A stretch of 64,000 nucleotides of DNA, from positions 1 through 64,000 of the forward strand of contig NZ_JAGMWN010000012.1 of assembly GCF_017963645.1 (NCBI RefSeq), given 5' to 3'. Shown here piece after piece: positions 10,186 through 32,780 of this stretch. The position numbers and the translations under genes are program-made. Position 1 is the first letter of the stretch, and the number at the start of each line of letters is the position of its first letter. The notes under the pieces were generated by a model, which ran no database searches, had not been told where the DNA came from, and was given only the letters and a program-made list of their open reading frames with translations. Origin of the DNA: Marivibrio halodurans. Lineage in GTDB: Bacteria > Pseudomonadota > Alphaproteobacteria > UBA8366 > Aestuariispiraceae.

Positions 10186-10209
10186 GGACGCGGACGCGGA
10201 CGCGGACGC
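10186..10209. repeat. GGACGC hexanucleotide x4
   Basis: Four perfect tandem copies of GGACGC lie in the non-coding leader between the two adhesin-system genes. No coding role is apparent. Confidence 0.8.
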
Positions 10210-10230
10210 GCAAGGGCCGGATAGGCTTAT

Positions 10231-10457
10231 ATCAAATCTTGTTGATCATGCCCCATGCGGACGTCCCTCCCGGGTTCTCGGCCAGGGGCGCGTGCCGTGG
10301 CGATGCGGGACATCGCGAGGCACGGGTGACGCCGTCGGAGGGCGTTAGCGCGGCTTGACGATGCCCCGCATCGCCTGCGCCACCCTTCCTGCCCGCCTCC
10401 GTCCGTTCAGGGGAAAGCCGAACGCGATCCGCATGGGCGTGACCAACAAGATTTGGA
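10231..10457. repeat. Imperfect ~30-bp inverted repeat flanking ~165 bp
   Basis: The left arm 10231-10262 and right arm 10428-10457 are inverted copies sharing the core CAACAAGATTTG and CCGCATGGG, with only a few mismatches. The right arm ends at the stop codon of the tolC-like gene (10458-10460). The DNA between the arms encodes nothing I recognise. It could be a remnant of a small non-autonomous element or a long-range RNA stem downstream of tolC. Confidence 0.6.
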
Positions 10458-12518
10458 TTAGTCGGAGAAGAAGCCGTAGGGCACGGCCGGCGCCCGGCGC
10501 CCGGCGCCATCATTGGACACCGATCGGTCGGGCCGGGCGGCCGGCGCATCCGCCGATCGCACCGCCTCGCTCGCGGATGCTCCATTGGAAGGGGAGTCAA
10601 CATGGAGCTGCGCGCGCGGCGCCTTGCTGGGCGTGCCCGGGGCGCCCATACCCCATGTGCCCACTGGATCCCGGGCGCTGTCGTCATTCAGGTCGGACAC
10701 CGGCGGGGCGGACTGCCCGCCGAGCGACGTGAAATGCGCCGAGCGATCCTCCTCCCCGCCGCCGTTCGGGACAGGGCCCGCGGCCGCGTTCGCTTCCCGG
10801 GTCTCCTCGCTGACACGACGGATCGGCGCGATCTCCGGGAACCCATCGTCGTTCCGCGCACTCGGGTCCAACGGAGCGCTCGGATCCAGGGGCGCATTGG
10901 GGTCCAGCGGAGCGCTGGGGTCCAGTGGGGCGCTGGGGTCCAAGGGGGCATTGGGGTCGAGAGACGCGCCACCATCGGGTTCGGTATAGACCGACGGCGC
11001 TGGCAAGCCGTCCCCCGTCCCCGGCATCATGGTCGGATCGCCTTCTCCACCCTGCCCAACACCGCCCTCGCTCGGCGGTGCCGTCAATTGGCGTTCGAGG
11101 TCGATCTGATCCGGCGGCGTGGGGTCGAGTTCGGAACGCGCGGCGCCAAGCTGCGGCACATCCAAGGCGGCCAGCAGAATACCGCCGGTCGCGAGAATAC
11201 GATACACGGAGAAAAGTTCCGTGAATTCCGAGCTCACCAAATTACCGCGCGCCAGGAAGTACTCGTTCTCCGCATCGAGCAATTCAAGCAGATTACGGCC
11301 GCCGAGATCGAACTGCTGACGATAAGTCTGCCGCACGCGGTCGTTCGCCTCGACCTCGCGACGCTGCGCGCGCAATCGGTCGCGCGCGGCGGTCAGGGCG
11401 TTCCAGGCGAGGCGCATTTCCTCCTCGGTCAGGCGCATGGCGCGATTGTGCCGCTGACGCGCCTCGGCGATCCGATGAATAAGCTCCTGGCGCCGATTGA
11501 TATCCTGCCCGCCACGATAGAAATTATAGCGCAGGCGAAGCAAGGCAGACGCGCCGTAATCGGTGCCACGCGCGGCCTCCTGATTGCGCGCCGTGTCGGT
11601 CGTCATCTCCAGATCGACGGTCGGATAAAAAGCGCTCTTGCTCGTCTTGTATTCCTCCCGCGCCGTGTCGACATCGGCGCGGGTCACCGCGATCGTGGGA
11701 TTGTTGCGCAACGCGATCTCGACCGCGCCGTCCAGGCTCTTCGGCAAGGACCAGAGCGGTGGCTGCGGGCGATAAAGCTCCCCCGGACTCTCACCGATAA
11801 TCCGGACATAGGTGGCGTCCGCGTCGCGCAGCCGGGCCTCGGCCTCGGTCAAGGTCGATTCCGCCGCGGCAAGGCGCGACTGCGCCTGCTGGATATCCGC
11901 GACCGTCGCGGCACCGCCGGCCGCCTTGGCCTCGACGAGTTCCAGCGTCTGCTCATGGCTGCGGACATTATCCTCGGCGATCGCCACCAGCTCGCGTTGG
12001 CGCAAGGACTCCAGATAAGCCTCGATCGCGTCGAGGCCGACGAACTCCGACGTCTCCCGAACCCGCCGCGCGGCGGAGACCACGCGGCTTTCCTGCCGCG
12101 AGACATCGGCGTCCGTGGCGAAGCCGTCGAATAGCGGCTGCACCAGGCTGACGCTGGCGTCATAGACCGGCATGCCGACATGATCGGAATCCCCGCCGGC
12201 CTTTTCACGATTGCGGGTCGAATTGTCCTTGGTCAGCTCATAGCCGGAAGAGGCGGAAAAATCGATGGTGGGATAGTACCCACCCTCGGCCTGTTCGAGT
12301 TCATACTCGACCGCGCGCTTGTTCTCCGCGACGATGCCGACATCCGGGTTGGTCTGAAGCGCGCTGCGCACCGCGTCCGTCAACTCGACCGCGCCAGCCG
12401 GCATGACCACCGGGATCGCGGCCAACACGGTGCCCGCCAGCAGCGCGCGCAGAAGCAACGGCCGTCGTGGCTGCCTCGCCCTCACGGGCTGCGCCTCCTT
12501 CTGGCTGTTCCCCCGCAT
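10458..12518 (-). CDS. TolC-family outer membrane efflux/secretion protein with C-terminal disordered extension
   Basis: 686 aa from the ATG at 12518, chosen over an upstream GTG at 12560 because GAAGGG lies 6 nt before it and the signal peptide then sits at the true N-terminus (hydrophobic core LLLRALLAGTVLAAI, cleavage near AGA-VEL). Residues about 45-450 show the two-fold TolC/OEP pattern (ELTDAVRSALQTNP, later VEIALRNNPTIAVTRAD; long helices with RQELVAIAEDNVRSHEQ). This is the outer-membrane channel of tripartite type I exporters. The gene precedes the giant adhesin in the same orientation, so it probably serves adhesin export. The last 235 residues, from LDVPQ onward, are unusual for TolC: low-complexity, Pro/Asp/Ser-rich, with LDPxAP repeats. 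No ABC or membrane-fusion subunit is visible in the window. Confidence 0.9.
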   Translation of the reverse strand: MRGNSQKEAQPVRARQPRRPLLLRALLAGTVLAAIPVVMPAGAVELTDAVRSALQTNPDVGIVAENKRAVEYELEQAEGGYYPTIDFSASSGYELTKDNSTRNREKAGGDSDHVGMPVYDASVSLVQPLFDGFATDADVSRQESRVVSAARRVRETSEFVGLDAIEAYLESLRQRELVAIAEDNVRSHEQTLELVEAKAAGGAATVADIQQAQSRLAAAESTLTEAEARLRDADATYVRIIGESPGELYRPQPPLWSLPKSLDGAVEIALRNNPTIAVTRADVDTAREEYKTSKSAFYPTVDLEMTTDTARNQEAARGTDYGASALLRLRYNFYRGGQDINRRQELIHRIAEARQRHNRAMRLTEEEMRLAWNALTAARDRLRAQRREVEANDRVRQTYRQQFDLGGRNLLELLDAENEYFLARGNLVSSEFTELFSVYRILATGGILLAALDVPQLGAARSELDPTPPDQIDLERQLTAPPSEGGVGQGGEGDPTMMPGTGDGLPAPSVYTEPDGGASLDPNAPLDPSAPLDPSAPLDPNAPLDPSAPLDPSARNDDGFPEIAPIRRVSEETREANAAAGPVPNGGGEEDRSAHFTSLGGQSAPPVSDLNDDSARDPVGTWGMGAPGTPSKAPRAQLHVDSPSNGASASEAVRSADAPAARPDRSVSNDGAGRRAPAVPYGFFSD
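10865..10960 (-). repeat. 18-bp tandem repeats encoding LDPxAP in the TolC tail
   Basis: Five full 18-bp units plus a partial one start at 10865 and encode LDPSAP/LDPNAP hexapeptides at about residues 520-553 of the TolC-family protein. The units differ only at a few bases, so copy number may vary between strains. Confidence 0.85.
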
Positions 12519-13054
12519 ATACCGCCCTTCGTTCACGGACCGCCGGACCCATCCTTGCACCGAATAGGCGAAGCCCCGTTCCGCATTTCTCCGAGACCCT
12601 CGGAAAGCGCAGCCAAGGACTCCTCGCTACAGAACGGGTATCCACCCTCTATCAAAGACTAGATATAGTATAGAATACCATATCTTTGCCAGAGAAAACC
12701 GTCCCGATAAGATGGCATTCGGCCTGATTTCACCGAAATCGTCCGCCGCCCCGCGATCCGGGAAGCGCTGGCCGCCCGCGCGAGGCGCTTGCGTCAAATA
12801 CATGATGACACTACGGTTTCCGTCGGGAGTAGGGGAAACGTGCCGTCGCGACGGCTGGCCGGCCGCCCGAACAGGGCGGGACGGCGCACGGACGGTCAGG
12901 TGGGGTACGTCGATTTATTGGGGGCAGGGCCGCCTGTGACGCAGTATGAATCCGACATCCGTGATTTTCCCGGGAGGCGCGAAACGCGCGCCCTGCATGA
13001 AAATTCGGGCCCGGCATGCCCTTACCGGACATCGATTCAGCGGACGGAGGCCGC
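12519..13054. other. Divergent intergenic region, tolC-like gene / amino acid ABC operon
   Basis: This 536-bp gap separates the minus-strand tolC-like gene from the plus-strand ABC operon. I see no recognisable gene. It contains a 25-bp AT-rich palindrome (12661-12685) and presumably the promoters of both directions. No convincing -35/-10 pair could be fixed. Confidence 0.6.
12661..12685. promoter_or_regulatory. 25-bp AT-rich palindrome upstream of tolC-like gene
   Basis: The half-sites AGATAT-n-GTAT and ATAC-n-ATATCT are perfect inverted copies around a 3-bp centre, allowing mismatches at the n positions. It lies about 145 bp upstream of the tolC-like ATG, in the only AT-rich patch of this gap. 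It looks like a dimeric regulator site. The regulator is unknown. Confidence 0.45.
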
Positions 13055-15571: not shown

Positions 15572-16387
15572 ATGGCCGAAAGCGACGCGAGCGGCGGCAT
15601 GATAGAGACGATCCGGCAATTCTCGGCCGAAAGCTCGCCGATCGACTTCGTCATCATCCTCGAACATGGCGATCTGTTCCTGATGGGGTTGGTGCAGACC
15701 GTGGCGCTGGTCGGGCTGGCGCTGGTGATCGGCGGAGCGCTATCGATACCGCTGTCGCTAATCCGTGCCTACCGCCATCCGGTCCTCAACCCGATCGTCT
15801 GGGTCTATACCTATACGTTCCGGGGCACGCCGTTGCTGCTGCAACTCTATCTGATCTACTACGGCCTCGGTCAGTTCGAGGCCGTGCGCGAAAGCTTCCT
15901 TTGGCCGATCATGCGCGATGCTTGGTGGTGCACGCTGTTCGCCTTCGTGCTCAATACCTGCGCCTATACGACGGAAATCCTGCGCGGCGCGATCGACGCC
16001 ACCCCATGGGGCGAGGTGGAGGCCGCCAAGGCCGCCGGCATGTCGCCCGCCACCCGGGTGCGCCGGATCATCCTGCCCAGCGCTTTCCGCCGCGCCCTGC
16101 CGCAATATTCGAACGAGGTCATCTTCATGCTGCATGGCTCCGTCGTCGCCTCGACGGTGACGGTGCAGGATATCCTGGGCGTCGGCTGGACCCTGAACGG
16201 CAAATATTATCTGGCCTATGAGGGGTTCATCGCGGCCGCCGTGCTCTATGCCCTTCTGGTCTGGGGGATCAGCCGCCTGTTCCGGTATCTGGAGCGCCGC
16301 TACCTCTCCCACCTCCGCCCGAGGGACGGATCGTCCGGCGGCGGGAAACGCGGGCCGAAGGCGCCATCCCCCCAACCGGCGACGTGA
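15572..16387 (+). CDS. Amino acid ABC transporter permease (HisM type)
   Basis: 271 aa, second membrane subunit of the importer. It shows an LMGLVQTVALVGLALVIGGALS helix region, the YTFRGTPLLLQLYLIYYG motif characteristic of HisM, and the EAA loop EVEAAKAAGMSPATRVRRI. It starts 4 bp after the HisQ-type gene and is therefore cotranscribed. The C-terminal 20 residues are Gly/Pro/Lys-rich. Its stop lies only 9 bp from the stop of the convergent deacylase gene. Confidence 0.92.
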   Translation: MAESDASGGMIETIRQFSAESSPIDFVIILEHGDLFLMGLVQTVALVGLALVIGGALSIPLSLIRAYRHPVLNPIVWVYTYTFRGTPLLLQLYLIYYGLGQFEAVRESFLWPIMRDAWWCTLFAFVLNTCAYTTEILRGAIDATPWGEVEAAKAAGMSPATRVRRIILPSAFRRALPQYSNEVIFMLHGSVVASTVTVQDILGVGWTLNGKYYLAYEGFIAAAVLYALLVWGISRLFRYLERRYLSHLRPRDGSSGGGKRGPKAPSPQPAT

Positions 16388-16396
16388 GATTCGGCC

Positions 16397-17554
16397 TCAA
16401 TCCTCCAACAGGCTGCCCTTCTTGCGATAGCCGAGCGGCTTGTCACCGACGACCTTGACCAACCGGTCCCCGGGCTGAACCAGGCGATGTTCGTTATAGG
16501 TGAAGAGACGGCCCGTCTGCGCCGTCGTCACCTCGACGCGGTTCTCGCCTGGCACGGCGGCGGGGTCGATCAGGACGGCGACGACCTCCCCCTCCTCCAC
16601 CATCGCGCCGAGCGGACGCTGATAGGCTACGAGCCCCGCGATGGGGGCGTTGACGGTATCGACCGCATCCAGGCGATAGGCGGTCGATAAGCCGTCCGGG
16701 GGCGGGGTCAGCCCGTCCGCCGCGCCGGAGGCGAGCGCCCCGATCCGCGCCAGGAACCGCATCAACCCGGCCGCGTCCTGGCGTCCCAACTCGTCCGAGA
16801 CATCGTTCTTCCCGCGCAGTTCGATCGTCGCGCCGAAGCAGACGGCGGGCAGGTGCTCCGCCTCCGCCACGCCCGCTTCCGCGAGGCGCCACCAAAGCTC
16901 GACCGGCGCGGTGTCGAAGGCGCCGCCACCGGCCTCCTCCTCCAACAGGACGATCCCTATGCCCATCGCCTGGGCCAGCGTCATCGCCGTCCCCGCCCGC
17001 GCCTCATTGGCATAGAGATGCGGTTCCGCCTCCCCGTCGCAATGCAGGTCGAGCACATGATCCGCGTCGGCGGAAAGCCGCATCAATGTCTTGCGCCATT
17101 GCATGGTCGGCGTGCGATCCGGCAAATCGTCGAGAGCCTCGCGCAGCGCCCCGCGCACCCGCGTCACATCCGCCGCGACATCGCCGGAGAGCGGGCCATT
17201 CAGCCGATCCTTCACCAACGGCGCGAGGTCGGCCCAATCGCGGTTGTAATTACCGCTGCCGTCATAGGCATAGCGGCCGGAAACGATACCGCCCAAGCGG
17301 TTGTCCATGCCGAGCGGATTGGCATAAGGCACGACCACGATCTCGCCCACGATCCGGCCGGCCGCGTCCGCATCGTCCAGCAGCGGCAGCAGGTGATGCA
17401 GCGCCATCAGCCCGGGCCATTCATCCGCATGCAGCGCCGCCTGGAGATAGACCTTCGGACGCGCGCCCTCCCGGCCATAGCGATGGACGACGAGGCTGCG
17501 CTCGACACCGGGCGTGGGTGCCAGAAGCGGCAGGGTCTCGGTGCGACGGGACAT
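16397..17554 (-). CDS. Succinylglutamate desuccinylase/aspartoacylase-family zinc deacylase
   Basis: 385 aa from the ATG at 17554, with AAGGAG 8 nt upstream. Zinc-binding motifs of the AstE/aspartoacylase branch of the M14 fold are visible: LQAALHADEWPG (H and E) early on, NRD near residue 110, and DLHCDGEAEPHLY with the third ligand. The last about 80 residues form a biotinyl/lipoyl-like beta region (APIAGLVAYQRPLGAMVEEGEVVAVL) common to this subfamily. The enzyme hydrolyses an N-acyl or peptide-like bond of a small amino acid derivative. Substrate cannot be read from sequence. It converges on an amino acid ABC importer, so it may act on the imported compound, which is inference. Confidence 0.85.
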   Translation of the reverse strand: MSRRTETLPLLAPTPGVERSLVVHRYGREGARPKVYLQAALHADEWPGLMALHHLLPLLDDADAAGRIVGEIVVVPYANPLGMDNRLGGIVSGRYAYDGSGNYNRDWADLAPLVKDRLNGPLSGDVAADVTRVRGALREALDDLPDRTPTMQWRKTLMRLSADADHVLDLHCDGEAEPHLYANEARAGTAMTLAQAMGIGIVLLEEEAGGGAFDTAPVELWWRLAEAGVAEAEHLPAVCFGATIELRGKNDVSDELGRQDAAGLMRFLARIGALASGAADGLTPPPDGLSTAYRLDAVDTVNAPIAGLVAYQRPLGAMVEEGEVVAVLIDPAAVPGENRVEVTTAQTGRLFTYNEHRLVQPGDRLVKVVGDKPLGYRKKGSLLED

Positions 17555-21584: not shown

Positions 21585-23612
21585 TCAAGCGGCGCGCAGA
21601 CTATAAACCTTCTGCGCGCCGAACTTCTTGGCGAGCGCCATGTTGCCGATATATTCGATCGCCCAGGGTTGATCGTCGAGCCTGGCGGCCCCGCCTTCCT
21701 GCGTCGCCTCCGCCGTCAGCAGGGCAGCATATTGTTCCGAGCAATAGACTTGCCCCGGCACCGTGACGGGCTCGATCCGCGCCGCCCGGTTGACATGGCC
21801 GCCATAGAAATTCGGCCGGCCGGTCAGCGGATCGATCTCGCGATAGGCCGGTCCGGCATGGAGCGCGATGCGCAGATCCAGCTCCGCCGCCGGACCGGTG
21901 AGCCGCCCGCGCGCCGCGCGGATCGCCGCCTGCAGGGCCAGCGCATAGCGCGCCATTTCCGCCGCCGTGTCCGTGACCGCGAAGATCGCATCCCCCCAGG
22001 TGTTGAGGAAGACGGGCGTCGGCGCGTCATCGAGCCCTTCCGCCACATGGGTCAGGAAGCGGACGAAATCCGGCACATGTTCCTCATGGATTTTGGAAAA
22101 GCCGACGACATCCGCGAAAAGCAGCGCCTGGATGCCGCGTTGGCCGGTGCGTGCCTCTTCCGGGCTTGGCGCCGGGGCCTTGGCGAGCGCATCGAGCAGC
22201 CCCGTATCGGACGGCGGCGTCCCGTCCGGCGCGCGCAAGGCCGTCAAATTGATCATGCGCAGCCGTCCCGTCGGCGCCCAAAGCGCGGTCATGTCCGCCG
22301 TGCCGCCGACCAGGCGCGTCGGCGTCCCGTCCCAGAGCGACACCAGATAGGGGGCGGTGCCCAGCAGGTCCGCCCGCAATTCCGCCATGCCGGCCATGAC
22401 CTGCGCGCCATAGCGGAACAGGATATCGTCGCCCAGATGCTTCTCCGTCGTGGCGTAACTCACCGTGTTGGCGAGCTTCATGATATTGTCGAACCGCTTG
22501 ATCCAGTGCGGCCCCGCGGCCGCGACCGATGCCTCGACGAAATCCGCGCGCGCGAAGGGAAGGACGATATTGACCTCCGCCCCGCGCTCCGCCAACGCCT
22601 CCAGGAACAGGATATCGCCGCCCTGCGCCGCCGCCGCATAACCGATGCGGCAGTCGATTTCCTCCAGCTTCGCCGCGATCGCCGCCTTCGCCGCGCGCTC
22701 GCACCCCGCCGGGAAGCGCGCGGACGGCCGATCCGGCGCGTCGATCATATGGCCGGTGAAGAGCGCGATCGCCGGCGGGCATACCGCCGCGCGCACGGCC
22801 TCCGGCACCGCGAGGCCGCGCGCCGCCAATTGATCAAGGCGCCGATTGAGTTGCGCCGCCCCGTCGCTCGTCGGCGGGTCGCTCGCCATCAGGGCCACCG
22901 CCTCGGCGGGCGCGCCCGCGATCAACAACGCCTCGACGGAGGGCGGCGGTGCGCCCGCCGCCTCCGCCTTGGCGAGCGCCGCGCGGGCAAGCGCCTCCGC
23001 GCGCCCGCTCTCCCCCGTTAGATAAACCGCGACCGCCGCCAGCGCGCCGAGGTCCGGCCGATCGGTCAGGCGCCACCCATCCTCCAGTACATCGCGCGCG
23101 CGGGCGAGTTCCTCCTCGCCCCCCTCGCGCGACCATAGCGTCAGATGCAGCCGGCCGAGCAGCGCGAAGGACGCCCCATCGCTTCCGTCCGACGCCCGGG
23201 ACAGGCCCGCCTCCGCCATCGCCTGCATGGCGGAAGCGAGGCCGGAGATCGCGTCGAGCGCCGCGTCGTCCGGCGCATCCGCCTTCGGGTCGATCGCGCG
23301 CATCACCTCGACCATTCGGTCATAGGCCGCGCGCACCCGGGGATTATTGCGTACCAGCGCGGCCTCCAGCGGCGCGGCCAGACGCTTCGCCTCCCCGAAG
23401 GCACCGGCGCTCAAGGCGGCCTCCGCGCCGAGGCGCTGAAGTTCCCGGTCGGCCGGAAAGCGTTCCAGGCCGGTACGCGCCAGATCATGCGCGACAAAAT
23501 ATTGACCGTCGCGGATCAAGACGCGCACGGCGCGCTCGAAATCGTCCGCCTCGTAACTGGACGGATCGAGGCCATGGCCCGCCAGCGCGGCCAGCATATC
23601 GGAATCGCTCAT
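21585..23612 (-). CDS. Class III nucleotide cyclase with N-terminal TPR-like and Rossmann-like regions
   Basis: 675 aa, soluble. Residues 1-300 are Ala-rich alpha-helical repeats of TPR/TRAFs-binding type. Residues about 300-480 include GHMIDAPDR and GGDILFLEALAERGAEVNIVLPF, a Rossmann-like segment resembling SLOG or similar nucleotide-sensor domains (uncertain). Residues 493-675 are a class III cyclase catalytic domain: first metal Asp501 (LLFADVVGFSKI), second metal Asp541 (NTWGDAIF), transition-state Asn608/Arg612 (HVNRAAR). All catalytic residues seem present, so it should make cAMP or cGMP. GAGGAG precedes the ATG. It is the last gene of the operon with the STAND protein and binding protein (47-bp gap). 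Confidence 0.88.
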   Translation of the reverse strand: MSDSDMLAALAGHGLDPSSYEADDFERAVRVLIRDGQYFVAHDLARTGLERFPADRELQRLGAEAALSAGAFGEAKRLAAPLEAALVRNNPRVRAAYDRMVEVMRAIDPKADAPDDAALDAISGLASAMQAMAEAGLSRASDGSDGASFALLGRLHLTLWSREGGEEELARARDVLEDGWRLTDRPDLGALAAVAVYLTGESGRAEALARAALAKAEAAGAPPPSVEALLIAGAPAEAVALMASDPPTSDGAAQLNRRLDQLAARGLAVPEAVRAAVCPPAIALFTGHMIDAPDRPSARFPAGCERAAKAAIAAKLEEIDCRIGYAAAAQGGDILFLEALAERGAEVNIVLPFARADFVEASVAAAGPHWIKRFDNIMKLANTVSYATTEKHLGDDILFRYGAQVMAGMAELRADLLGTAPYLVSLWDGTPTRLVGGTADMTALWAPTGRLRMINLTALRAPDGTPPSDTGLLDALAKAPAPSPEEARTGQRGIQALLFADVVGFSKIHEEHVPDFVRFLTHVAEGLDDAPTPVFLNTWGDAIFAVTDTAAEMARYALALQAAIRAARGRLTGPAAELDLRIALHAGPAYREIDPLTGRPNFYGGHVNRAARIEPVTVPGQVYCSEQYAALLTAEATQEGGAARLDDQPWAIEYIGNMALAKKFGAQKVYSLRAA

Positions 23613-23659
23613 CGAAAAATCTCCTCCCCCTCGCCGCGCCGTCCGCGCGCCTCTAGAGC

Positions 23660-24916
23660 CTAACGCATCGACCGGGGCGGCGCCGGATAAACCACCGTGT
23701 CCCAGGCCCAGTTCGCCGGCGCCACGATCTGAAACCGCCCATCGCGGATCTGATAGAACAGCATCGGTTTCGCCACGTTCCGGCCGGTCTCGTCGAACCG
23801 AATTTCGCCGAACAACGTCTCCAGATTGGTTTCGGCGAGGGCCGCGCGCACCGCGTCGCGCTCCAGCGTCCCCGCCCGTTCGATCGCATCGGCCAGGACC
23901 AGCACGGCGGCACTCGACTGGGCCGCCTGATAGGTCACGGGCCGACCGGTCTTCTCCTCGTAGAAGAAGGCATATTCATTGGCCGTGCCGAACCACCGGT
24001 CGCGATAGCTGAGATACCGGTCCCATTGGGTGCCGCAGATCAGATAATCGCGCGCCGCCGGGGGACGATCGGCCAGGGCCGCCGGATCGCAATGGGTCAT
24101 CGCCACCAGCGGCAGATAGATCCCCGCCGCATGCAGCGCATCGACCGCCGCCGTGCTGCCGGCCGAGAAGCCGGAGAACAACAGCGCATCCGCCCGCGCC
24201 GCTTCCGCCGCCTTGAGGATCGCGGGAAGGTTCGAGAAATCCTCCGCCAAGACCTCGTCGACCGCGATGGTCATGCCCCAGCGCATCAGTTCGTCGAGCA
24301 CGCCGTCGCGAATCTCCTGCGTGCCGGCATTGCCGAGAAAGGCGAGCGCGATGCGCGCCTCCGCCGGATCGCGCCCCACCGCCAACAGTTCCTTGCCGAT
24401 CAGATCGACCGTGCCGGCGAGATATTGCCGCGAGGTGGAGGGTACGGCGAACAGGTTCCGGCGGCCCTGATCGAACAGGAAGCTCGCCGTGCCGTTGGAG
24501 ATCACGACCGGCATGTCGGCCGCCTCGGCGACGGCGGCGACGCTCTCGCTCAGCCCCGAGCTATAGGGGCCTAGGAGGAAATCGACCCCATCCTCCTCGA
24601 TCAGCGCGCGGGTCGCGGCCGTGGCGCCCGCCGTATCCGATTCATCGTCCCGGAAGGCCAGGGCGAAGCGCGCGCGCCGCCCGTCCGCGAGGGCGATGCC
24701 GCCCGCCTCGTTCACGGTTTCCACCACCAGGGCGTAACCGTCGATCACCTCGCGCGAGATGGCGGCGAAGCGTCCGCTTTCGGAGATCGCGGCGCCGAGC
24801 GTGACGGTAACCGTCCCGTCCGTCTGCGCGCGCGCCGCGCCACCGGCGAACGACAGGGCGCCCCCCATCGCCAAACCGATGACCAAAAGGATCGGAAGAA
24901 GCCGGCGCGCCCTCAT
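23660..24916 (-). CDS. Periplasmic Leu/Ile/Val-type ligand-binding protein (type I fold)
   Basis: 418 aa. A signal peptide (core LLPILLVIGLAMGGALSF, cleavage near ARA-QTDG) precedes a type I periplasmic-binding fold of the LivK/Peripla_BP_6 family: VTLGAAISESGRFAAISRE, GIALADGRR, LLGPYSSGLSES, VISNGTASF, LAFLGNAG, and YQAAQSSAAVLVLADAIERAGT. The ATG at 24916 overlaps the stop of the STAND gene (ATGA) and has a strong GGAGGAGG site. No permease or ABC ATPase lies nearby. It probably acts as a periplasmic receptor for the system encoded around it and not for import. Ligand unknown; the family binds branched amino acids, amides and many other small molecules. Confidence 0.9.
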   Translation of the reverse strand: MRARRLLPILLVIGLAMGGALSFAGGAARAQTDGTVTVTLGAAISESGRFAAISREVIDGYALVVETVNEAGGIALADGRRARFALAFRDDESDTAGATAATRALIEEDGVDFLLGPYSSGLSESVAAVAEAADMPVVISNGTASFLFDQGRRNLFAVPSTSRQYLAGTVDLIGKELLAVGRDPAEARIALAFLGNAGTQEIRDGVLDELMRWGMTIAVDEVLAEDFSNLPAILKAAEAARADALLFSGFSAGSTAAVDALHAAGIYLPLVAMTHCDPAALADRPPAARDYLICGTQWDRYLSYRDRWFGTANEYAFFYEEKTGRPVTYQAAQSSAAVLVLADAIERAGTLERDAVRAALAETNLETLFGEIRFDETGRNVAKPMLFYQIRDGRFQIVAPANWAWDTVVYPAPPRSMR

Positions 24917-27900
24917 CGTCCCTCCTCCACATCGAGGAAATAGCGGTCCCGCTCCACCGGACCGAGCGGCCGGTCGCGGCGTTGGCGCGCGTGGGCGACG
25001 AGCGAGCGAGTATCCGGGAAGACCGGTGCGAGAAGAAGCGTGCCGTCGTCCAGCCCCGCCGCGACCGTGTGTCCCGTGGGATCCAACGCCGCCTCGCTGA
25101 CCGCATGGTCGCTCTCCACCGGGCGGGCCAGTTCGACACCGCTCGCCGTGTCCCAGAGCCGGACCGTCCCGTCCGAGGATGCGGTCAGGAGCCGCCCGCC
25201 TTCCGCGTCGAAGGACAGCCCCTCCACCGCCCCGCCATGGCCGGCGAAAGCCGCGCGCTGATAGCCGGTGCGGGTGTCCCACAGATTGACCGTCCCCCCT
25301 TCCCCGCCGGCCGCGATCGACCCGCCGGCCGGCGCGAAGGCCAGATGATAGACCGCGCGCGATCCGCCGAGCCGCAGCACCGCCGAGCCGTCGGCCGCGT
25401 CCCACAGCACGATCCGTCCATCGGCCGACGCCGTCGCGACCTGCCCGCCGTCCGGCGCGAACAGGGCCGACGTCACCGGCGCGGCGTCGGACGCCTCCCC
25501 GCCGGGAGCGAGCCGGACGGCGGTCCAACCAGCCGACTCCCCAGTCGCATCCCCAATCGCATCCCCAGTCGCGCGCCCAGCGGCCTCATCCGCGCCATCC
25601 CCCTCACTACGATGCCAAAGACGCGCGGTCCCATCGGCCGAGGCGCTGACGAGGCGCGCGCCGTCGGGCGACCAGGCGACCCGCCGCACGGCCGCCTCGT
25701 GCCCGGCAAGCGTCGCGCGTAGCGCGCCGTCCCGGGCCGAGAAGAGCCGGACGGTTCCATCATCCGATGCGGTCGCGAGCGTCGCGCCGTCCGGCGCGAA
25801 GGCGATGTCGCGGACATCGTCCGTATGGCCGTAGAGGACCGCCAGCGCCTCCCCCGTCGCCGCGTCCCAAAGGCGCGCCGCGCGATCTTGACCGGCGGTC
25901 GCCAGACGCGCGCCATCCGGCGAGAGTTCCAGCATATGGACCCGCCCCTCATGCGCGGCGACACGCCACCCCGGATCATTCGCCGACGCGTCCCCGCCCG
26001 TGAAGGCTTCCGGCAGGTCCCATCGCGCCAGCCTCCCTTGTCGGTCGGCCGCGAACAGGACGCCGCCATCGGCCGAGAAGACGAGCCGGTCGGCCGAGCC
26101 CGCCATGCGTCCGAACAAGCGCGCCGCGCCGCCATTCATCGTCCCCTCCGCGCGCCAACGCCGAAGCCTCCCGTCGCGCGCACCGGTCAGGACATGCCGC
26201 CCATCGGCGGAGAAGAGCGCCCGGGTCAGCCCATCCTCCGAGCGCAGGGTGGCGAGCGGCCGGCCCGTCACGGTCCACAAACGCACCGTCCCGCCCGCAT
26301 CGGCAGTCAGCGCACGGAGGCCGTCGCCCGCGAAGTCGACCGAAACCACGCGCGCGTCGCTCGTCGCGTCGCTCAGAACCGCGATCTGCCGGCCCGTCGG
26401 CCCATGCCAAAGAATGGCCTTGCCGTCGCGATCCCCGCTCAACAACGCGCCGCCGTCCGACGAATAGGCAAGCGCCGTCACCGAGCGGCCATGCCCGACC
26501 ATCCGCGACAAGGGTCGCCCGTCGATCCCATCCACCTGCAACACCGCGCCGTCCCGGGTGCCGAGCGCGACGCGCGCGCCGTCCGGGGTAATCGCCATCG
26601 CGGTGATACCGCTTTCCGCCACGGACACGAAACGGGGGGGCTGTCCCGCCCCGGGCCAGAACACGACACGGCCCGAGAGATCCGCCGCGATCCACCCACC
26701 CGCCGGATGCGCGACCAGGGCGGAGAAACGGTCGCCGCCCGTGCGGACGCGCGCCAGGATCTCCCCCGTCTCCACCCGCGAGACGGCGAGTGTCCCGTCC
26801 CAGCCGGCGCTGGCGATATCGCCGCCGGTCGCGTCGAAGGCGAGACCCGCGATCGGCCCCGCATGCGCCGCGATCGTCGCGACCAAGGCGCCATCGGACG
26901 CGCGCCAGAGCGCGATGGCGCCGTCCGCCGCCGCCGTCGCGATCCGCCGCCCGTCGGAAGAGATCGCGGCATCCGTCAACCGCCCGCCGCGCGGATCGAG
27001 CGCGAAGACGGGCCGTTCCCCGTGCCCCGCGTTCCAGACCAGCGCGCGGCCATCGGCGCCGACGCTGACCATGCGGATGCGGTCGGGCGCGACGCGGATC
27101 GATTCCACCGCCGCGTCGTGTCCCGGCAGCCGGTCATTGCCCCGGAAGCGGCGCAATGCGTGGTAAAGCGCCGATTCCGCCTCCGCCACATAGGGGCGTT
27201 CCGGCCGGTCGAAATCCGAAGGCAGGGCGGCGAGCGCAAGTTCGAGCGCGGTTCGGAAATCGCCCGCATTCGCCCGTTCCCGACTGATCCGAGCCAGGAA
27301 TTGGGATTGCTTGCGCAGCACGCGCTCGGTCTGCTTCTCCGCCCGGAGCAGCGCGACCTCCGCCGCCTCGCGCGCGGCCTCGGTGCGGCGCGCCTGGAAG
27401 GCGGTGGCGCGCGCCAGGGTCTCGGCCTCCTCCCGCGCGGTCTCGGCGTCGCGGGCGCGTGACTCGGCGACGGCGCGTTGCGCCTCGGCTTCCTTCTGCC
27501 CGCTATAGCCGAGCCACCCGCCCGCCGCCGCGACGAGCGCGAGCCCCGCCATCGCGACCGCCAGCATGCGGGTCCGCTTCAATTTGCGGCGCTGGGCCTC
27601 GGCCGCCTCTTCCTGACGGTGCTGGAACGCGGCATAGGAGGCCTCGATATAGGCGATGGTGGCCTCGTCCAGATCCTCGCGCCGCCCACGCAGAAGATCG
27701 CGGGCATCGAACAGCGGCTTGCCTTCCGACAACAGGAGATCGGGGCTTTCCCCCTCTTCCCGCCAATGGGATGCCTGATCGGCGATGCGCGCGCGCAGCC
27801 GCAGGAAATCCTTATCCGCCTGTAGCCAGACCGCCAACCGGGGCCAGCGCGTCAACAGCGCCTCATGCGCGACGCGCACATGGCTCTCGCCGCCCTCCCC

Positions 27901-29658
27901 GTCGATGACCAGAAGCCGGGCTTCGACGAACGCATCGACCAGCGCCGCGCGGTTCGAATCCTCCCCCACCGCCTCGACCAGCGTGGGGCGCCGGGCCGTC
28001 GGCCGGTCCTCGTCTCCCTTGGCCAGCGTGACCAGACGGCGCAGCACGGGATTCAGCGCCTCCTGCACCGCCGGCGGTTGCTCGGCAAAACAAGCCTCCG
28101 CCCGCTTGGCGAGCGCGCCTTCCAACCCGCCCAACGCCTCATAGGCATCGAAGGTGAGATACCCTTCGTCGCTGCGCGCCTCGAACAACTCGTCCAGCAC
28201 GAAGCTCATCAAAGGCAGCGCGCCCGGGTCCTGGGCGGCCGCGCCCTGCAGGACCTCGTCCAGGCGTTGCTCGCGCACGGGGTCCATCTCGAAGCGCAGG
28301 CCCGCCGCGCGGGCCGGCTGGCGGATCATCTGACCGATCTCGGAGAAATCGGGGGGCAGGAGATGGATTTGCCCATCCCCTTCCATCAGGGTGACCAGTT
28401 TCTTCAGCCGCGCCGTGCGATGATAGAAATCGTCCCGCATCGTGGCGACGACATGGACCAGGCCGCTGCGGGCCAGCGCATCGATCACGTCGATGAAATG
28501 GACCGCCTGATCGTCGGTGATCGCCTCGCCGGTGAAGAGTTCCTCCGTCTGGTCGAGCGTGAGGGCGAGGCGCGCCTCGGGCCGGCGACTCAGCCGCTCG
28601 GCCTCCGCCACCTTGTCGGCCACGGCGGCGAGCGCGATGCGCAGGGGCTCGATCACGGCATCCGGCGCCCGGTCGATCAATCGGGTCAGCGTGGCCGGGT
28701 CATAACCCAGCCCCTCCAGTTCCGGCAGCGCATGCTCCGACAACAGGGCCTGGGCGATACCCCGGGCGATATCGGCCTCCCCATCGGAGGGGCGTACCGT
28801 CGCGCGCCGCCACACGCCGATGCCGTCCACCACGCCCGGCTGGCACAGGGTCGGAATCACGCCCGCGCGCACCAGCGAGGATTTGCCGCCGCCCGACGCC
28901 CCCAGCACCATGACGAAGGCCTTGCCGCGATGCGCCTGCCGGGTCAGCGCGTCCTTGACCTCGCCGATCCAGCGCGTACGGCCGAAGAAAACCGGCGCAT
29001 GTTCGTACTGGAAGGCCGCCAGCCCCCGGAAGGGCGAGCCCCGGGTCCAGGTGACGGCCGGCGCGCCGCTGTCGTCGGACAGGCGTTCCGGCACCTTGGC
29101 GCGCATCAGGCGGCGCAGATGCTCCTCCGCCATCTCCTCGAAGCGATCGGGCGTGTCGAAGGGGTGGAAGGCGCTCTTGAAGCCGCTGTCGTGGCTGCCG
29201 AACCATTTGTTGAGGAAGGCGTCGAGTTTCTTCTTCTGCTCCAGCCGATCGATCAGCGCCTGCTCGTCGCTCATGTCGGAAATCGGCGGCGCGGTCTTGC
29301 GATAGACCATGATGTCCGGCTTGCCGGTCTCGCGGAAAGCGGTCAGCGCGTCCTCGAACTCCCATTCCGTGCCGGAATCATAGGTCGTGCCGTCGGTCCG
29401 CCGGAACTGATCCGGCAATCGCGTGCCGAGACGCGACCATAGGATGCAGACCACGATATCGGCGTCGGACGGTTTCTCGATCTCCTCCTGGAAATGGGCG
29501 TGGGCCCGCAGGGGTTCGTGCTCCCACAACATCGGCTTGATTTCCAGGAAGCCGGAGAACTCGCTTTGCAGCCGATCGAGAATACGCGCGCAGATCAAGC
29601 GCTCCTGGCCGACATCGCCGGGCGACGAGATGAAAACTTTGACGCTGCGCCGTGCCAT
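24913..29658 (-). CDS. DUF4062 - STAND NTPase (nSTAND1) - transmembrane - WD40 protein
   Basis: 1,581 aa from the ATG at 29658. Residues 1-120: DUF4062 domain (KVFISSPGDVGQERL, DIVVCILWSRLGTRLP, GTEWEFEDALTAF). Residues 205-600: STAND P-loop NTPase with Walker A GASGGGKSS (253-261), Walker B LALTLDQTEELF (364-375), sensor RDDF (408-411) and the winged-helix end VRVAHEALLTRWPRL. A KRTR-flanked hydrophobic helix covers 698-719. A coiled coil (AEAQRAV...REEAETLAR) covers 720-800. About 14-16 WD40 repeats follow, 845-1581 (GHTDDVRDIAFAPDG, DDGTVRLF). By the positive-inside rule the NTPase is cytosolic and the propellers are periplasmic. STAND proteins are ligand-triggered oligomeric switches, often immune. 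The binding-protein gene overlaps its stop. Confidence 0.9.
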   Translation of the reverse strand: MARRSVKVFISSPGDVGQERLICARILDRLQSEFSGFLEIKPMLWEHEPLRAHAHFQEEIEKPSDADIVVCILWSRLGTRLPDQFRRTDGTTYDSGTEWEFEDALTAFRETGKPDIMVYRKTAPPISDMSDEQALIDRLEQKKKLDAFLNKWFGSHDSGFKSAFHPFDTPDRFEEMAEEHLRRLMRAKVPERLSDDSGAPAVTWTRGSPFRGLAAFQYEHAPVFFGRTRWIGEVKDALTRQAHRGKAFVMVLGASGGGKSSLVRAGVIPTLCQPGVVDGIGVWRRATVRPSDGEADIARGIAQALLSEHALPELEGLGYDPATLTRLIDRAPDAVIEPLRIALAAVADKVAEAERLSRRPEARLALTLDQTEELFTGEAITDDQAVHFIDVIDALARSGLVHVVATMRDDFYHRTARLKKLVTLMEGDGQIHLLPPDFSEIGQMIRQPARAAGLRFEMDPVREQRLDEVLQGAAAQDPGALPLMSFVLDELFEARSDEGYLTFDAYEALGGLEGALAKRAEACFAEQPPAVQEALNPVLRRLVTLAKGDEDRPTARRPTLVEAVGEDSNRAALVDAFVEARLLVIDGEGGESHVRVAHEALLTRWPRLAVWLQADKDFLRLRARIADQASHWREEGESPDLLLSEGKPLFDARDLLRGRREDLDEATIAYIEASYAAFQHRQEEAAEAQRRKLKRTRMLAVAMAGLALVAAAGGWLGYSGQKEAEAQRAVAESRARDAETAREEAETLARATAFQARRTEAAREAAEVALLRAEKQTERVLRKQSQFLARISRERANAGDFRTALELALAALPSDFDRPERPYVAEAESALYHALRRFRGNDRLPGHDAAVESIRVAPDRIRMVSVGADGRALVWNAGHGERPVFALDPRGGRLTDAAISSDGRRIATAAADGAIALWRASDGALVATIAAHAGPIAGLAFDATGGDIASAGWDGTLAVSRVETGEILARVRTGGDRFSALVAHPAGGWIAADLSGRVVFWPGAGQPPRFVSVAESGITAMAITPDGARVALGTRDGAVLQVDGIDGRPLSRMVGHGRSVTALAYSSDGGALLSGDRDGKAILWHGPTGRQIAVLSDATSDARVVSVDFAGDGLRALTADAGGTVRLWTVTGRPLATLRSEDGLTRALFSADGRHVLTGARDGRLRRWRAEGTMNGGAARLFGRMAGSADRLVFSADGGVLFAADRQGRLARWDLPEAFTGGDASANDPGWRVAAHEGRVHMLELSPDGARLATAGQDRAARLWDAATGEALAVLYGHTDDVRDIAFAPDGATLATASDDGTVRLFSARDGALRATLAGHEAAVRRVAWSPDGARLVSASADGTARLWHRSEGDGADEAAGRATGDAIGDATGESAGWTAVRLAPGGEASDAAPVTSALFAPDGGQVATASADGRIVLWDAADGSAVLRLGGSRAVYHLAFAPAGGSIAAGGEGGTVNLWDTRTGYQRAAFAGHGGAVEGLSFDAEGGRLLTASSDGTVRLWDTASGVELARPVESDHAVSEAALDPTGHTVAAGLDDGTLLLAPVFPDTRSLVAHARQRRDRPLGPVERDRYFLDVEEGR
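25541..25576 (-). repeat. 12-bp x3 short tandem repeat in a WD40 loop
   Basis: Three 12-bp units lie inside the WD40 region and encode a small Ala-x-Gly-Asp/Glu loop between two propeller blades. This is likely slippage-derived loop expansion. Confidence 0.7.
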
Positions 29659-29994
29659 GATCCGCCCAATGATTCCCGACAGTTCCGGTCGACAGCCCCA
29701 CGTCCCCGGTCGGTTCGACCGCGACCTTACGACGGCGCGCGGCCGCCACCAAGCGCCGCGATTGCCGCCCCGCGTGCTTTGTGGTTTCATCCCGACGTCC
29801 CATCGAGACGGGGCCTTCAGGGGGGGATCGAAAACTGTCGCAAGCACGGAAAAACCCGCGCCGACAGACGGGGAGGCGACGACGCCACCACGCGGGGCAA
29901 CCGAACGCCTCCCGCCATTTCTCGGTATTTCCACCGGCGGTCGTAGGCGCCCGGCCGGTCGACATCTACCGGCGCGCGGGTGGTGGGGCCTGAC
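29659..29994. other. Divergent intergenic region between STAND operon and sensor/MFS pair
   Basis: This 336-bp gap separates the starts of two divergent transcription units (29658 minus, 29995 plus). No recognisable gene is present. A small perfect hairpin, CGGTCG/CGACCG, lies near 29708. The promoters of both units must lie here or overlap, so they may be co-regulated. I could not identify convincing promoter elements. Confidence 0.6.
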
Positions 29995-30714
29995 ATGCGC
30001 CTGCCACTGCGCATCGCCATCATGCTATTGCTGGTTCTGGGCTTCGGGGTTGGGCTGACGGCTTTTCTCAGTCAGGCGAAGTTCGAGCGCACGCTCGAGG
30101 ATCTCGTGCGCTCGCGCCTTCAAGTGGTCGCGCTCGACCTGTCGCACACGATGGAAGGCGCGCTCGGCCTCGGCCTCTCCCTGGAGGAAGCGCGCAACAT
30201 CCCCGACGCGCTGGCCACCGCCGCAGCCGCGGATTCGGATATCCTGTGGATCGGCGTGCGCGATCAAACGAATAGTGTCCTCTTCGAAACCGGCACCCCG
30301 CCGCCTGAGGAACAGGGGTTGAGCGTGACGGCACCGATCGTCAACGCCTTCGACCAACCGGCCGGCCGCGTCACGGTCGTCGGATCGCGCGCGGCGGTCG
30401 GCCAGGTGGTCGCGGACAGTCTGCGGCGGCTAGGGCTGGTTTCGGCGATCGCCGTGCTGGCGGCGACCCTCGTCGGCGCGCTGCTCGCCAGTCTGGCGTT
30501 GCGCGGAATCGTGCACCGCTTCGCGGAGGCGCGCGACGCCCTGCGGGCGATGCGAAACGGCCGAACGCCGGAGATTCCACCGCCGGACGCGGATGCCACG
30601 CCGCTCGACCGGGACTTCATCGCGTTTCGGCGGCTCGCGCGCCAGGCTTTCGTCGATCTCCACCACGCGGAGCGGGAAGCCAACGGGTCCGCGCCACCGC
30701 GCGCGAAAGGCTAA
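29995..30714 (+). CDS. Membrane sensor-like protein with periplasmic domain, no output domain
   Basis: 239 aa from the ATG at 29995. An N-terminal helix (LPLRIAIMLLLVLGFGVGLTAF), a periplasmic region of about 115 residues (KFERTLEDLVRSRLQVVALDLSH, DILWIGVRDQTNSVLFETG) and a second helix (LVSAIAVLAATLVGALLASLAL) form the architecture of a bacterial sensor. After the second helix only a HAMP-like stub (FAEARDALRAMRNGR) remains, with no kinase, cyclase or methyl-accepting domain. It sits 5 bp before the HAMP-MFS gene, which has an equivalent sensor unit, so the two may form a heteromeric receptor. Family not recognised. Start chosen by the position of the first helix. Confidence 0.7.
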   Translation: MRLPLRIAIMLLLVLGFGVGLTAFLSQAKFERTLEDLVRSRLQVVALDLSHTMEGALGLGLSLEEARNIPDALATAAAADSDILWIGVRDQTNSVLFETGTPPPEEQGLSVTAPIVNAFDQPAGRVTVVGSRAAVGQVVADSLRRLGLVSAIAVLAATLVGALLASLALRGIVHRFAEARDALRAMRNGRTPEIPPPDADATPLDRDFIAFRRLARQAFVDLHHAEREANGSAPPRAKG

Positions 30715-30719
30715 GAGCG

Positions 30720-32780
30720 ATGCAGGCCGAACAGGCGAACCGTCTTGCCCGGACCCTCAACCTCCGACTGATGGGGCTGACGGTTCTGTTGCTGGCCGCG
30801 ACTCTGGGCGGCGTCGGGCTCTATGCGCTTTCACTGTTCGACGATGCCCTCGCCCCCGCGATCGACCGCAAGGCGACCACGATCGCGCGCCTCGGTGGGG
30901 ATGTGATCGAACGGGGGCTGACCCACGGCATTCCTCTCGCCCGCATGACCGGGGTGGAGGAATTCCTGGCCAAGCAGGCCGAAGGCCATCCGGAAGTCCT
31001 TTACCTTAGTGTCGAGGGACCCGACGGCCGGGTGCTCCATACCCATGGGACCCCACCGGAGGAGCCCCCGGAAACCACCGGCGAAACCCCGATGGAAGGC
31101 GGGGCCGGCCGACCCTTCACCCGCACGATCCGGGGCGACGCGGTGGATCACGCGACCCCGCTCATCGCCCCGGGCGACGAAGGAAACCGGGTCGTCGGGG
31201 TGCTGCATGTCGGCGTCGACCGGGCCTTCGTGCGCAAGGAATTGCAGGATATCCTGTTCGATATCGGGGTGGTGATCTTCGCCGCCCTGCTGATCACCTT
31301 CGAGTTCCTCCTCTATCTCGTCACCACGACCTTGAGCGGCCCGATCCGCGAGGCAAGCCGATTGATCGCGCGGCTGTCGGAAGGGGATTTCACCGCCCGG
31401 GTCGGCCGCGTGGGCCGGGACGAGATCGGCCGGACCCTGGGCGCGCTGAACGATGTCGTGGACGCGGTGAACAGCCGGTACGAGGCGCTCAGGAATCGCG
31501 CCACGGGCCGGGCGCCGGCGGCGCGCCTGGCTGAAACCTACCGCTTCGCCGCCGATCACGGGGCGGAGCGGATCGACGCCGACCGGATCGCCGCGATCCG
31601 CACCCCGCTTTTCCTCTTCATCTTCGCGGAATCGCTCTCGCTCAGCTTTTTCCCGCTTTATGTCGATAGCCTGCTGGGTCCCGTGCCCTGGCTCGGGCGG
31701 GAGGTGGCGATCGGCCTGCCGATCGCGATCTTCATGATGATCTGGGCCTTCAGCCAACCGATCGCCGGCGCCTTCTCCGAGGGGCGCGGCCGGCGCCCGG
31801 CCTTCCTGATCGGCGCGGCGATCGCCATCCTGGGTTTCGCGCTGACGGCATTCGCCGGGGATTATTATCAACTCCTCGCCTTTCGCTCGCTCACCGCCTT
31901 CGGCTATGGCGCGGCCTATATCGCCTGCCAGGGTTATGTCGGCGACAACACGACCGCGGAAAACCGGACCCAGGGCTTCAACGTCTTCGTTGTCGGCTTC
32001 TTCGCCGCGACGATCTGCGGGACGGCCGTGGGGGCGATCCTGGCGGACCGGCTGGGCTATCGGACGACCTTCCTGATCGCGGCGATCCTGGCGGGCATGG
32101 CCTTCCTTTTCGTCTGGCGGCTGCTTGACGAGCGGCCGGCGGCGAACCGCGCGGCCAGCCGCTTCACGCTCGCCGACATCCGGGCCGTCTTCGCCAATCC
32201 ACGGTTCCTGGGCCTGACGCTCTTCGCGGCGATCCCGGCCAAGTTCCTGCTCGCCGCCTATCTCTATTTCCTGGCGCCGCTGCATCTCGACGCGCTCGGC
32301 AACAGCCAGTCGGCGATCGGGCGCATCCTGATGATCTACGCCATCCTGATGGTCTTCCTTTCGCCCTGGACGGCACGTCTCTCGGATCGGGTGGGGCGGC
32401 CGCTCGTCTTCGTCACGGCGGGGACCGCGCTGTCGGGACTCGCGCTCTGCGCCACATTGATCGTGCCGGGCACGCCGGGCGTGCTGGCGGGCGTGCTGGT
32501 GATGGGGATCGGGCACGCGATCTCGGTCTCGACGCTGGCGACCATGGTGCCGCTGGTCGCGCGTGAGGAATGCGCGCGCCTCGGCCGCGGCACCGTTATC
32601 GGCATCTATCGGTTGGTCGAGCGTTTCGGCAGTGTTTTCGGGCCTTTCGCCGCCGGGGCGCTGCTCGCCGCCGGCGGGTTCGCGCTCTCCACGGTGGCGA
32701 TCGGCGCGGGCATCGCCGCCTGCGCCCTGCTGCTGCTGCTCACCTTCCGGCTCAGCCCAATGCGCGAGAAATTTGAATAA
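30720..32780 (+). CDS. Fusion of periplasmic sensor and HAMP domain with an MFS transporter
   Basis: 686 aa. TM helix 17-39, a periplasmic domain about 40-178 (KATTIARLGGDVIERGL, EVLYLSVEGPDGRVLHTHG), TM helix 180-202, a HAMP domain 203-255 (LSGPIREASRLIARLSEGDF, GRDEIGRTLGALNDVVDAV), and then a complete 12-helix MFS transporter, 293-686, with an inter-helix motif SEGRGRRPAFLIG. HAMP domains normally carry signals to kinases, cyclases or chemoreceptor tails. Here the downstream output is a transporter, so ligand sensing may gate transport directly. It is cotranscribed with the preceding sensor-like gene and is divergent from the STAND operon. Transport substrate and direction are unknown. Confidence 0.88.
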   Translation: MQAEQANRLARTLNLRLMGLTVLLLAATLGGVGLYALSLFDDALAPAIDRKATTIARLGGDVIERGLTHGIPLARMTGVEEFLAKQAEGHPEVLYLSVEGPDGRVLHTHGTPPEEPPETTGETPMEGGAGRPFTRTIRGDAVDHATPLIAPGDEGNRVVGVLHVGVDRAFVRKELQDILFDIGVVIFAALLITFEFLLYLVTTTLSGPIREASRLIARLSEGDFTARVGRVGRDEIGRTLGALNDVVDAVNSRYEALRNRATGRAPAARLAETYRFAADHGAERIDADRIAAIRTPLFLFIFAESLSLSFFPLYVDSLLGPVPWLGREVAIGLPIAIFMMIWAFSQPIAGAFSEGRGRRPAFLIGAAIAILGFALTAFAGDYYQLLAFRSLTAFGYGAAYIACQGYVGDNTTAENRTQGFNVFVVGFFAATICGTAVGAILADRLGYRTTFLIAAILAGMAFLFVWRLLDERPAANRAASRFTLADIRAVFANPRFLGLTLFAAIPAKFLLAAYLYFLAPLHLDALGNSQSAIGRILMIYAILMVFLSPWTARLSDRVGRPLVFVTAGTALSGLALCATLIVPGTPGVLAGVLVMGIGHAISVSTLATMVPLVAREECARLGRGTVIGIYRLVERFGSVFGPFAAGALLAAGGFALSTVAIGAGIAACALLLLLTFRLSPMREKFE

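Follow-up and report, generated by a model that had tools for sequence, protein, structure and literature searches.

A possible trans-envelope switch: a DUF4062-STAND protein encoded with a periplasmic binding protein and a class III cyclase in Marivibrio halodurans

Introduction

Switches of the STAND and NLR type are usually thought to read intracellular signals. A locus of the alphaproteobacterium Marivibrio halodurans (Aestuariispiraceae) raises the question of whether such a switch might be gated from outside the cytoplasm. The DNA analysed is a stretch of 64,000 nucleotides (assembly GCF_017963645.1, contig NZ_JAGMWN010000012.1, positions 1 to 64,000 of the forward strand), referred to here as the window. 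On its minus strand, the gene of a large STAND protein is followed by those of a periplasmic binding protein (PBP) and of a nucleotide cyclase, all three co-directional and with open frames:

24913..29658, minus strand: STAND protein, 1581 amino acids (aa), with the order DUF4062, nSTAND1, transmembrane (TM) segment, WD40 (Pfam; homologues up to 56% identical)
23660..24916, minus strand: LivK-type PBP, 418 aa (Pfam; signal peptide; tree)
21585..23612, minus strand: class III nucleotide cyclase, 675 aa (Pfam, alignment, model)

The STAND gene starts at the ATG at 29658, and in alignment the N-termini of homologues begin near the same residue. Its TGA overlaps the PBP ATG as ATGA, 47 bp separate the PBP stop from the cyclase ATG, and the PBP and cyclase genes each have a good, GGAGG-like ribosome-binding site (GGAGGAGGGACGATG, GGGGGAGGAGATTTTTCGATG). 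The arrangement given in the first-pass annotation of this DNA, with its coordinates, overlap and spacing, is thereby borne out.

The answer preferred here, which is held tentatively and with somewhat less than even confidence, is that the three genes specify an NLR-like switch which spans the membrane, is controlled by the PBP from the periplasmic side and carries a TIR-type NAD+-cleaving enzyme (NADase), with the cyclase as its companion. If this is true, a periplasmic sensor and a binding protein borrowed from nutrient uptake would make NAD+ depletion responsive to a small molecule from outside.

Domains and topology of the STAND protein

Four regions have been delimited in the STAND protein:

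29089..29649, minus strand: DUF4062 (TIR-like) domain, aa 4-190 (Pfam PF13271; alignment; model; PDB matches)
27742..29034, minus strand: nSTAND1 NTPase domain, aa 209-639, with Walker A GASGGGKSS and Walker B LALTLDQTEE (PF20703, 5.7e-94)
27505..27567, minus strand: single TM segment, aa 698-718, basic side first, predicted N-in/C-out (hydropathy, position kept in homologues, Cys count)
24979..27051, minus strand: WD40 propeller region, about aa 870-1560, predicted periplasmic (Pfam WD40, 5.2e-84; predicted topology)

The Pfam match to DUF4062 covers aa 7-104 and lies barely past the cut-off (6.6e-6). The composition is that of the nSTAND1 class, namely an NTPase domain with Walker A and B motifs, an N-terminal DUF4062 and C-terminal WD40 repeats. 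Hydropathy analysis gave aa 698-718 as the sole strong hydrophobic segment, with the basic stretch KLKRTR ahead of it; a hydrophobic segment lies at about aa 675-760 in 11 of the 11 STAND homologues examined, preceded by a basic stretch in most. Cysteines number four in the 697 residues before the TM segment and none in the 862 after it. Since the basic stretch precedes the TM segment, the positive-inside rule predicts a cytosolic location for DUF4062 and the NTPase and a periplasmic one for the WD40 propellers, on the side of the membrane where the PBP is delivered by its signal peptide.

Two related loci encode DUF4062-nSTAND1-TM proteins (L067 2191-5064 and L069 6846-9713) in which the part after the TM segment looks, by eye, like an FGE/SUMF1-type domain and stands in place of WD40. 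Another DUF4062-nSTAND1 homologue (G043, at L050 8325-10574) ends just past the TM segment and has lost the glutamate motif described below.

The DUF4062 domain as a putative NADase

When folded in a 20-sequence alignment, the DUF4062 domain gave a model with a pLDDT of 86 and a pTM of 0.82, whose best PDB matches are TIR domains and nucleoside deoxyribosyltransferases/DNPH1 (Z 10-12.6). The domain carries the motif GTEWEFEDA, the second Glu of which, E100, is invariant in all 20 aligned sequences. By the motif spacing of deoxyribosyltransferases, E100 is probably the catalytic Glu. A TIR-like fold and a conserved Glu, both found here, are the structural marks of the DUF4062 proteins that have been described as TIR-like NADases in a 2026 preprint (PMC13174449). 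In that work, the bacterial DUF4062 protein Swarozyc was reported to protect against phage through NAD+ depletion, and human TEP1 (DUF4062-NACHT-WD40) to be an active NADase (PMC13174449). Because of the fold model, the invariant Glu and this precedent, the STAND protein is predicted to be a membrane-spanning, putative TIR-type NADase. The "immune-type response" that the first-pass annotation had proposed can, by analogy with this family, be made more specific.

The NADase reading has a competitor, which is considered rather unlikely. In it, the operon would be a non-immune chemosensory relay, where a periplasmic ligand sets the cyclic-nucleotide output and DUF4062 serves as an oligomerising adaptor devoid of NADase activity. 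No NADase activity was observed for human NWD1, NWD2 and NPHP3, which also contain DUF4062 (PMC13174449), and the motif is altered in two homologues (L081, L094) and in G043. Small nutrients are bound by PBPs of this family, and receptors of cyclic nucleoside monophosphates (cNMP) adjoin related cyclases, both in keeping with such a relay. Nonetheless, the window domain retains GTEWEFEDA, and classical TIR domains replace DUF4062 beside related cyclases.

The periplasmic binding protein and its pairing with STAND

The PBP matches Peripla_BP_6 (3.6e-40) and begins with a signal peptide of the Sec type (about aa 1-31), in which there is no lipobox Cys. Of the 98 relatives compared, the nearest are about 40% identical, occur in 15 genomes and mostly have LivH-, LivM- and ATPase-like genes downstream. 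A HAAT importer comprises a PBP with two permeases and two ATPases; no LivH, LivM or ATPase gene is present beside the window PBP, which upholds the earlier description of a binding protein devoid of transport partners although its relatives have them, and the protein was rejected as the subunit of a nearby importer. In addition, the M. halodurans genome contains no orthologue of the importer permease of the PBP relatives (best match 30% identity), so that a cognate ABC importer is, from sequence comparison, unlikely. The same genome has 15 LivH-like permease-family matches, one of which might nevertheless serve the PBP.

A profile of the STAND N-terminal region, run against 84,980 species genomes, returned 33 loci. 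The closest relative, at 56% identity, belongs to a Rhodospirillales metagenome-assembled genome (L064), where the STAND gene is followed, 4 bp on, by the gene of a PBP 48% identical to that of the window. In the tree, these two PBPs form their own clade, apart from the importer-linked PBPs and with support of 100/100, to be taken with some caution given that both have rather long branches and an unusual composition.

These data bear on the possibility that the PBP belongs to a unit elsewhere, for example an ABC importer encoded at a distance or the HAMP-MFS protein of the divergent gene described below, and that its position in the operon is recent and accidental. This explanation appears the least probable of those considered. 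The 15 LivH-like matches would accommodate it, as would the adjacency of PBP and STAND in two genomes only; moreover, homologues of the HAMP-MFS gene and its partner are often followed by a gene of another PBP type, ABC_sub_bind, which is missing at the window. Against it stand the overlap of the PBP start and the STAND stop, the same gene order and separate PBP clade in L064, and a genome that has no cognate permease orthologue.

At two other loci (L035 3632-7232 and L030 578-3446), a PBP of the same family adjoins what appears, by eye and in phmmer comparisons, to be a SulP-type transporter with STAS-like and cNMP-binding parts rather than ABC genes, an apparent further re-use of the family outside ABC import. 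In L064, the gene of an ion channel with a cNMP-binding domain (15794-17074, minus strand) is convergent with the STAND-linked PBP gene and overlaps its end.

The nucleotide cyclase

The third gene product is assigned to the class III cyclases through its C-terminal domain:

21591..22136, minus strand: cyclase domain, aa 493-674, with D501, D541 and R612 kept and N537 (27-sequence alignment; Foldseek TMt up to 0.79)

Pfam places Guanylate_cyc at aa 496-634 (1.8e-9), a Foldseek search with the domain model returned class III cyclases, and the metal-binding Asp residues D501 and D541 and the Arg R612 of the class are conserved. The model of the whole protein is of low confidence (pLDDT 61), and the cyclase domain alone was used for comparison. 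At the specificity position, occupied by Lys in adenylyl cyclases and by Glu in guanylyl cyclases, the window protein has N537, and Asn occurs in 23 of the 27 family members; the canonical Lys/Asp substrate pair of adenylyl cyclases is replaced by N537 and N601. None of the published residue sets of pyrimidine cyclases fits, the protein differing from BcPycC, EaPycC and AnPycC by motif spacing (PMC11224242), and PADLOC gave no PycC match. As the specificity residues match no characterised set, the product is not predictable, and an assignment from active-site residues was rejected.

The homologues share an architecture in which a predicted helical N-terminal region is followed by a Rossmann-like section and then by the cyclase domain, whose two metal Asp and Arg they also keep. 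The TPR-like region proposed by the first-pass annotation is supported as a predicted helical array (mostly pLDDT 50-93), although there is no Pfam match, while its SLOG reading was not confirmed for the middle of the protein. Pfam, a PDB profile search and profile comparisons with LOG and DprA were all negative, hhalign against DprA giving 1% probability, no better than the control; what persists is a motif resemblance to SLOG and a predicted alternation of helices and strands. A 1347-aa frame beside the L142 cyclase shows no homology to any of the query proteins, looks non-coding and was set aside.

Recurrence and linkage across genomes

Among 385 genomes of the host's class, a full DUF4062-nSTAND1 protein occurs in nine and the cyclase in 23, with both in seven (p=3.5e-8; p=4.5e-7 with the window's own genome left out). 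Counted by family, the co-occurrence is 6/8 (p=1.4e-5, assuming 171 families in total). Ten of the 19 genomes found through the STAND scan have the cyclase, including that of L064, which holds, on another contig, the best cyclase relative outside the window (43%, 8e-118). Direct neighbourhood has also been detected: the cyclase gene precedes the STAND gene with a 4-bp overlap in L132 and with a 3-bp gap in L093, the two are immediate divergent neighbours in L133, and a distance of about 5 kb separates them at L067 and L069, two related loci. The earlier claim of one functional system is retained in part. Set against its own refuting conditions, rare adjacency of the homologues or a distant importer as partner of the PBP, it holds in modified form: the STAND/PBP pair of L064, the cyclase/STAND neighbours and the genomic co-occurrence speak for it, but the exact trio in one operon was found only here. 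A fixed three-gene operon across genomes was rejected, as only pairs recur, and this distribution supports, at the level of sequence, a linked system in modules rather than one fixed operon. Plasmid carriage was likewise rejected, since the plasmid search found no cyclase homologue and STAND matches that in most cases covered only the nSTAND1 part.

The same distribution can be read differently. It is conceivable, though unlikely, that the DUF4062-STAND protein acts alone as an abortive-infection sensor of phage proteins, similar to Swarozyc or Avs, with the PBP and the cyclase as accessories or passengers. Consistent with this are the antiphage activity of DUF4062 (PMC13174449), a weak PADLOC match of the DUF4062 part to PDC-S60 (7.7e-8), the patchy distribution of STAND (the 9/385 genomes above) and the absence of a PBP neighbour beside most STAND homologues. 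Against it, a TM segment separates NTPase from WD40 and would keep the sensor out of the cytosol, where it could hardly meet phage proteins made inside; the STAND-PBP pairing recurs with its own PBP clade, and STAND co-occurs with the cyclase (p=3.5e-8). As for the genomic setting, PADLOC run on 37 window proteins yielded scattered single matches only, none of them traced to genes, and a defence-island setting was rejected.

TIR proteins and cyclic-nucleotide receptors beside related cyclases

The association of the cyclase with TIR-type proteins extends beyond DUF4062. In relation to cyclase relatives, a TIR-TM gene lies directly downstream (L060 5739-8368), a TIR-CHASE2 gene is divergent (L061 8265-12407), a TIR-nSTAND1-WD40 gene is convergent (L150 4805-10920) and a TIR-multi-TM gene lies about 1 kb away (L056 8488-13306). 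A TIR or DUF4062 gene was found within 6.5 kb at 6 of 23 cyclase loci, these being the loci found by cyclase search alone, as opposed to 0 of 36 control loci (p=0.002), a rough control given that the control loci differ in length and origin. On the cyclase tree, the TIR-link label changes seven times, with at least three changes forced by well-supported branches, which indicates that the link has been gained or lost repeatedly. The recurrence of one cyclase family with several TIR-type proteins, mostly membrane-anchored, suggests cross-talk between NAD+ cleavage and cyclic-nucleotide signalling, and the partnerships supply defined protein pairs for testing.

Receptors of cNMP adjoin cyclase relatives as well, with CRP in L149 and L059 and a P450-cNMP_binding protein in L053; nine matches to cNMP-binding domains occur in the M. 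halodurans genome. The L053 gene (5849-8188, minus strand) encodes a cytochrome P450 fused to cNMP-binding domains and is divergent from the cyclase relative.

Proposed mechanism

In the preferred reading of a periplasm-gated switch, the secreted PBP, with the receptor of an ABC importer as its ancestor, would bind a small ligand outside the cytoplasm. The closed (or empty) PBP would then dock on the periplasmic WD40 propellers of STAND, and docking would free the cytosolic nSTAND1 NTPase to oligomerise. Clustered DUF4062 domains would form an active TIR-type NADase, leading to growth arrest or death and/or an NAD+-derived signal. The helical and Rossmann-like N-terminal part of the cyclase would receive the state of this first module, through contact or an NAD+-derived product, and would adjust the synthesis of a cyclic nucleotide whose receptors, of the CRP or channel type, are encoded at other sites of the genome. 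The linear chain from ligand through STAND to second messenger, as proposed in the first-pass annotation, is one possible order: the cyclase could work side by side with NAD+ cleavage or at a later step. In this scheme, gene order, domains, the TIR-like model with its conserved Glu and the genomic linkage are observed, and NAD+ cleavage by DUF4062 proteins is taken from published work (PMC13174449), while the topology, the docking and oligomerisation, the enzyme activity of the window protein and the role of the cyclase are inferred.

A bolder form of this scheme, which is improbable on present data, would be a trans-envelope, inflammasome-like complex. The free PBP would be the receptor for the NADase STAND, the cyclase N-terminus would sense the NAD+-derived product and convert it into a cyclic-nucleotide signal, and members of a single cyclase family would work with several interchangeable sensors of the TIR type (DUF4062-STAND, TIR-CHASE2, TIR-TM).

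Several observations weigh against a periplasm-gated NADase switch. The exact trio in one operon was found nowhere but in the window, and just two genomes show the PBP-STAND linkage. Two homologues have lost the first Glu of the motif (E98), and G043 has neither the Glu motif nor the WD40 part; judged from these sequences, enzyme activity and sensor are not universal in the STAND family. The window cyclase falls in a subclade (with L191, L141, L142, L053 and others) apart from most TIR-linked cyclases, and within this subclade a TIR-type link occurs only in the window and, by genome, in the organism of L064. The specificity residues of the cyclase match no characterised class (PMC11224242), the SLOG assignment was negative in every profile test, and the PADLOC search of the 37 window proteins gave no clear cluster of defence genes near the operon.

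Neighbouring genes

Two divergent genes upstream of the operon are possible extended members:

29980..30714, plus strand: S244, a 244-aa membrane protein with no Pfam family (conserved pair with MFS686)
30720..32780, plus strand: MFS686, a HAMP domain fused to an MFS transporter (Pfam HAMP and MFS_1)

S244 and HAMP-MFS constitute a widespread conserved gene pair (L141, L156, L164-L175, L177), which is often followed by the ABC_sub_bind gene mentioned above and sometimes by SpoIIE-type phosphatase and STAS genes. The unit adjoins a close relative of the window cyclase in L141, and an MFS homologue lies about 3 kb from a cyclase relative in L146. From this gene order, S244 and HAMP-MFS may be part of the same sensory region as the operon, and a possible role for the unit is that of an MFS-type receptor feeding a partner switch.

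At the start of the window (1-12560), the first 10 kb contain very long open frames of repetitive sequence, next to the gene of a TolC-like outer-membrane protein (10458-12560, minus strand); the frames possibly represent a giant repeat protein that is secreted, together with a part of a type I secretion system.

Comparison with known systems

The closest sequence relatives of the window PBP (about 40% identity) are the HAAT/LivK importer binding proteins, from which it differs in the lack of importer genes and in its separate clade with the STAND-linked PBP of L064. TEP1 and APAF-1-like proteins run, like the window protein, from an effector domain through a STAND NTPase to WD40 propellers, TEP1 being DUF4062-NACHT-WD40. 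These proteins are eukaryotic and cytosolic or vault-bound, and they are not known to have a PBP partner or a TM segment that separates the NTPase from WD40.

Thoeris, with a TIR protein and a SLOG sensor, resembles the locus in combining a TIR-like enzyme with a second protein, a possible reader of a nucleotide product. In the window, this second protein is a cyclase and not a ThsA-type effector, none of which was seen there, and its SLOG region is unconfirmed. Pycsar, where a class III pyrimidine cyclase is paired with a TIR or TM receptor, likewise has a class III cyclase adjoining TIR-family effectors. It differs in that no cNMP-binding domain was found in the window's TIR-like partner among the best 25 of 50 Pfam families, nor in the N-terminal and TM-linker segments scanned alone, and in its PycC residues and PADLOC PycC profile, which the window cyclase does not match.

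None of the parts of the operon is new in kind, and modules of the PBP, cyclase and TIR types have been described in bacterial conflict systems (PMC7159879). The nSTAND1 and NTP-dependent systems (Kaur et al., 2020, 2021; PMC7159879, PMC8195603) show the recurrence of nSTAND1, cNMP cyclase and TIR modules, and System 4 of the former has a TM segment with an extracellular PBP domain as one variable region (PMC7159879). There, the PBP is fused within a two-gene caspase or cyclase system, whereas the window PBP is secreted on its own and paired with a DUF4062-STAND; neither paper mentions DUF4062 in its text (PMC7159879, PMC8195603). In the literature searched, no description was found of a free PBP coupled to DUF4062-STAND, nor of the cyclase-TIR partnership seen here. 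Lastly, Swarozyc has in common with the window protein a DUF4062 TIR-like domain with the Glu motif and a presumed activation by clustering (PMC13174449). Its auxiliary domain is a short C-terminal helix-turn-helix/winged domain that binds the phage portal, whereas the window has in that position nSTAND1, a TM segment and WD40, together with the genes of a PBP and a cyclase.
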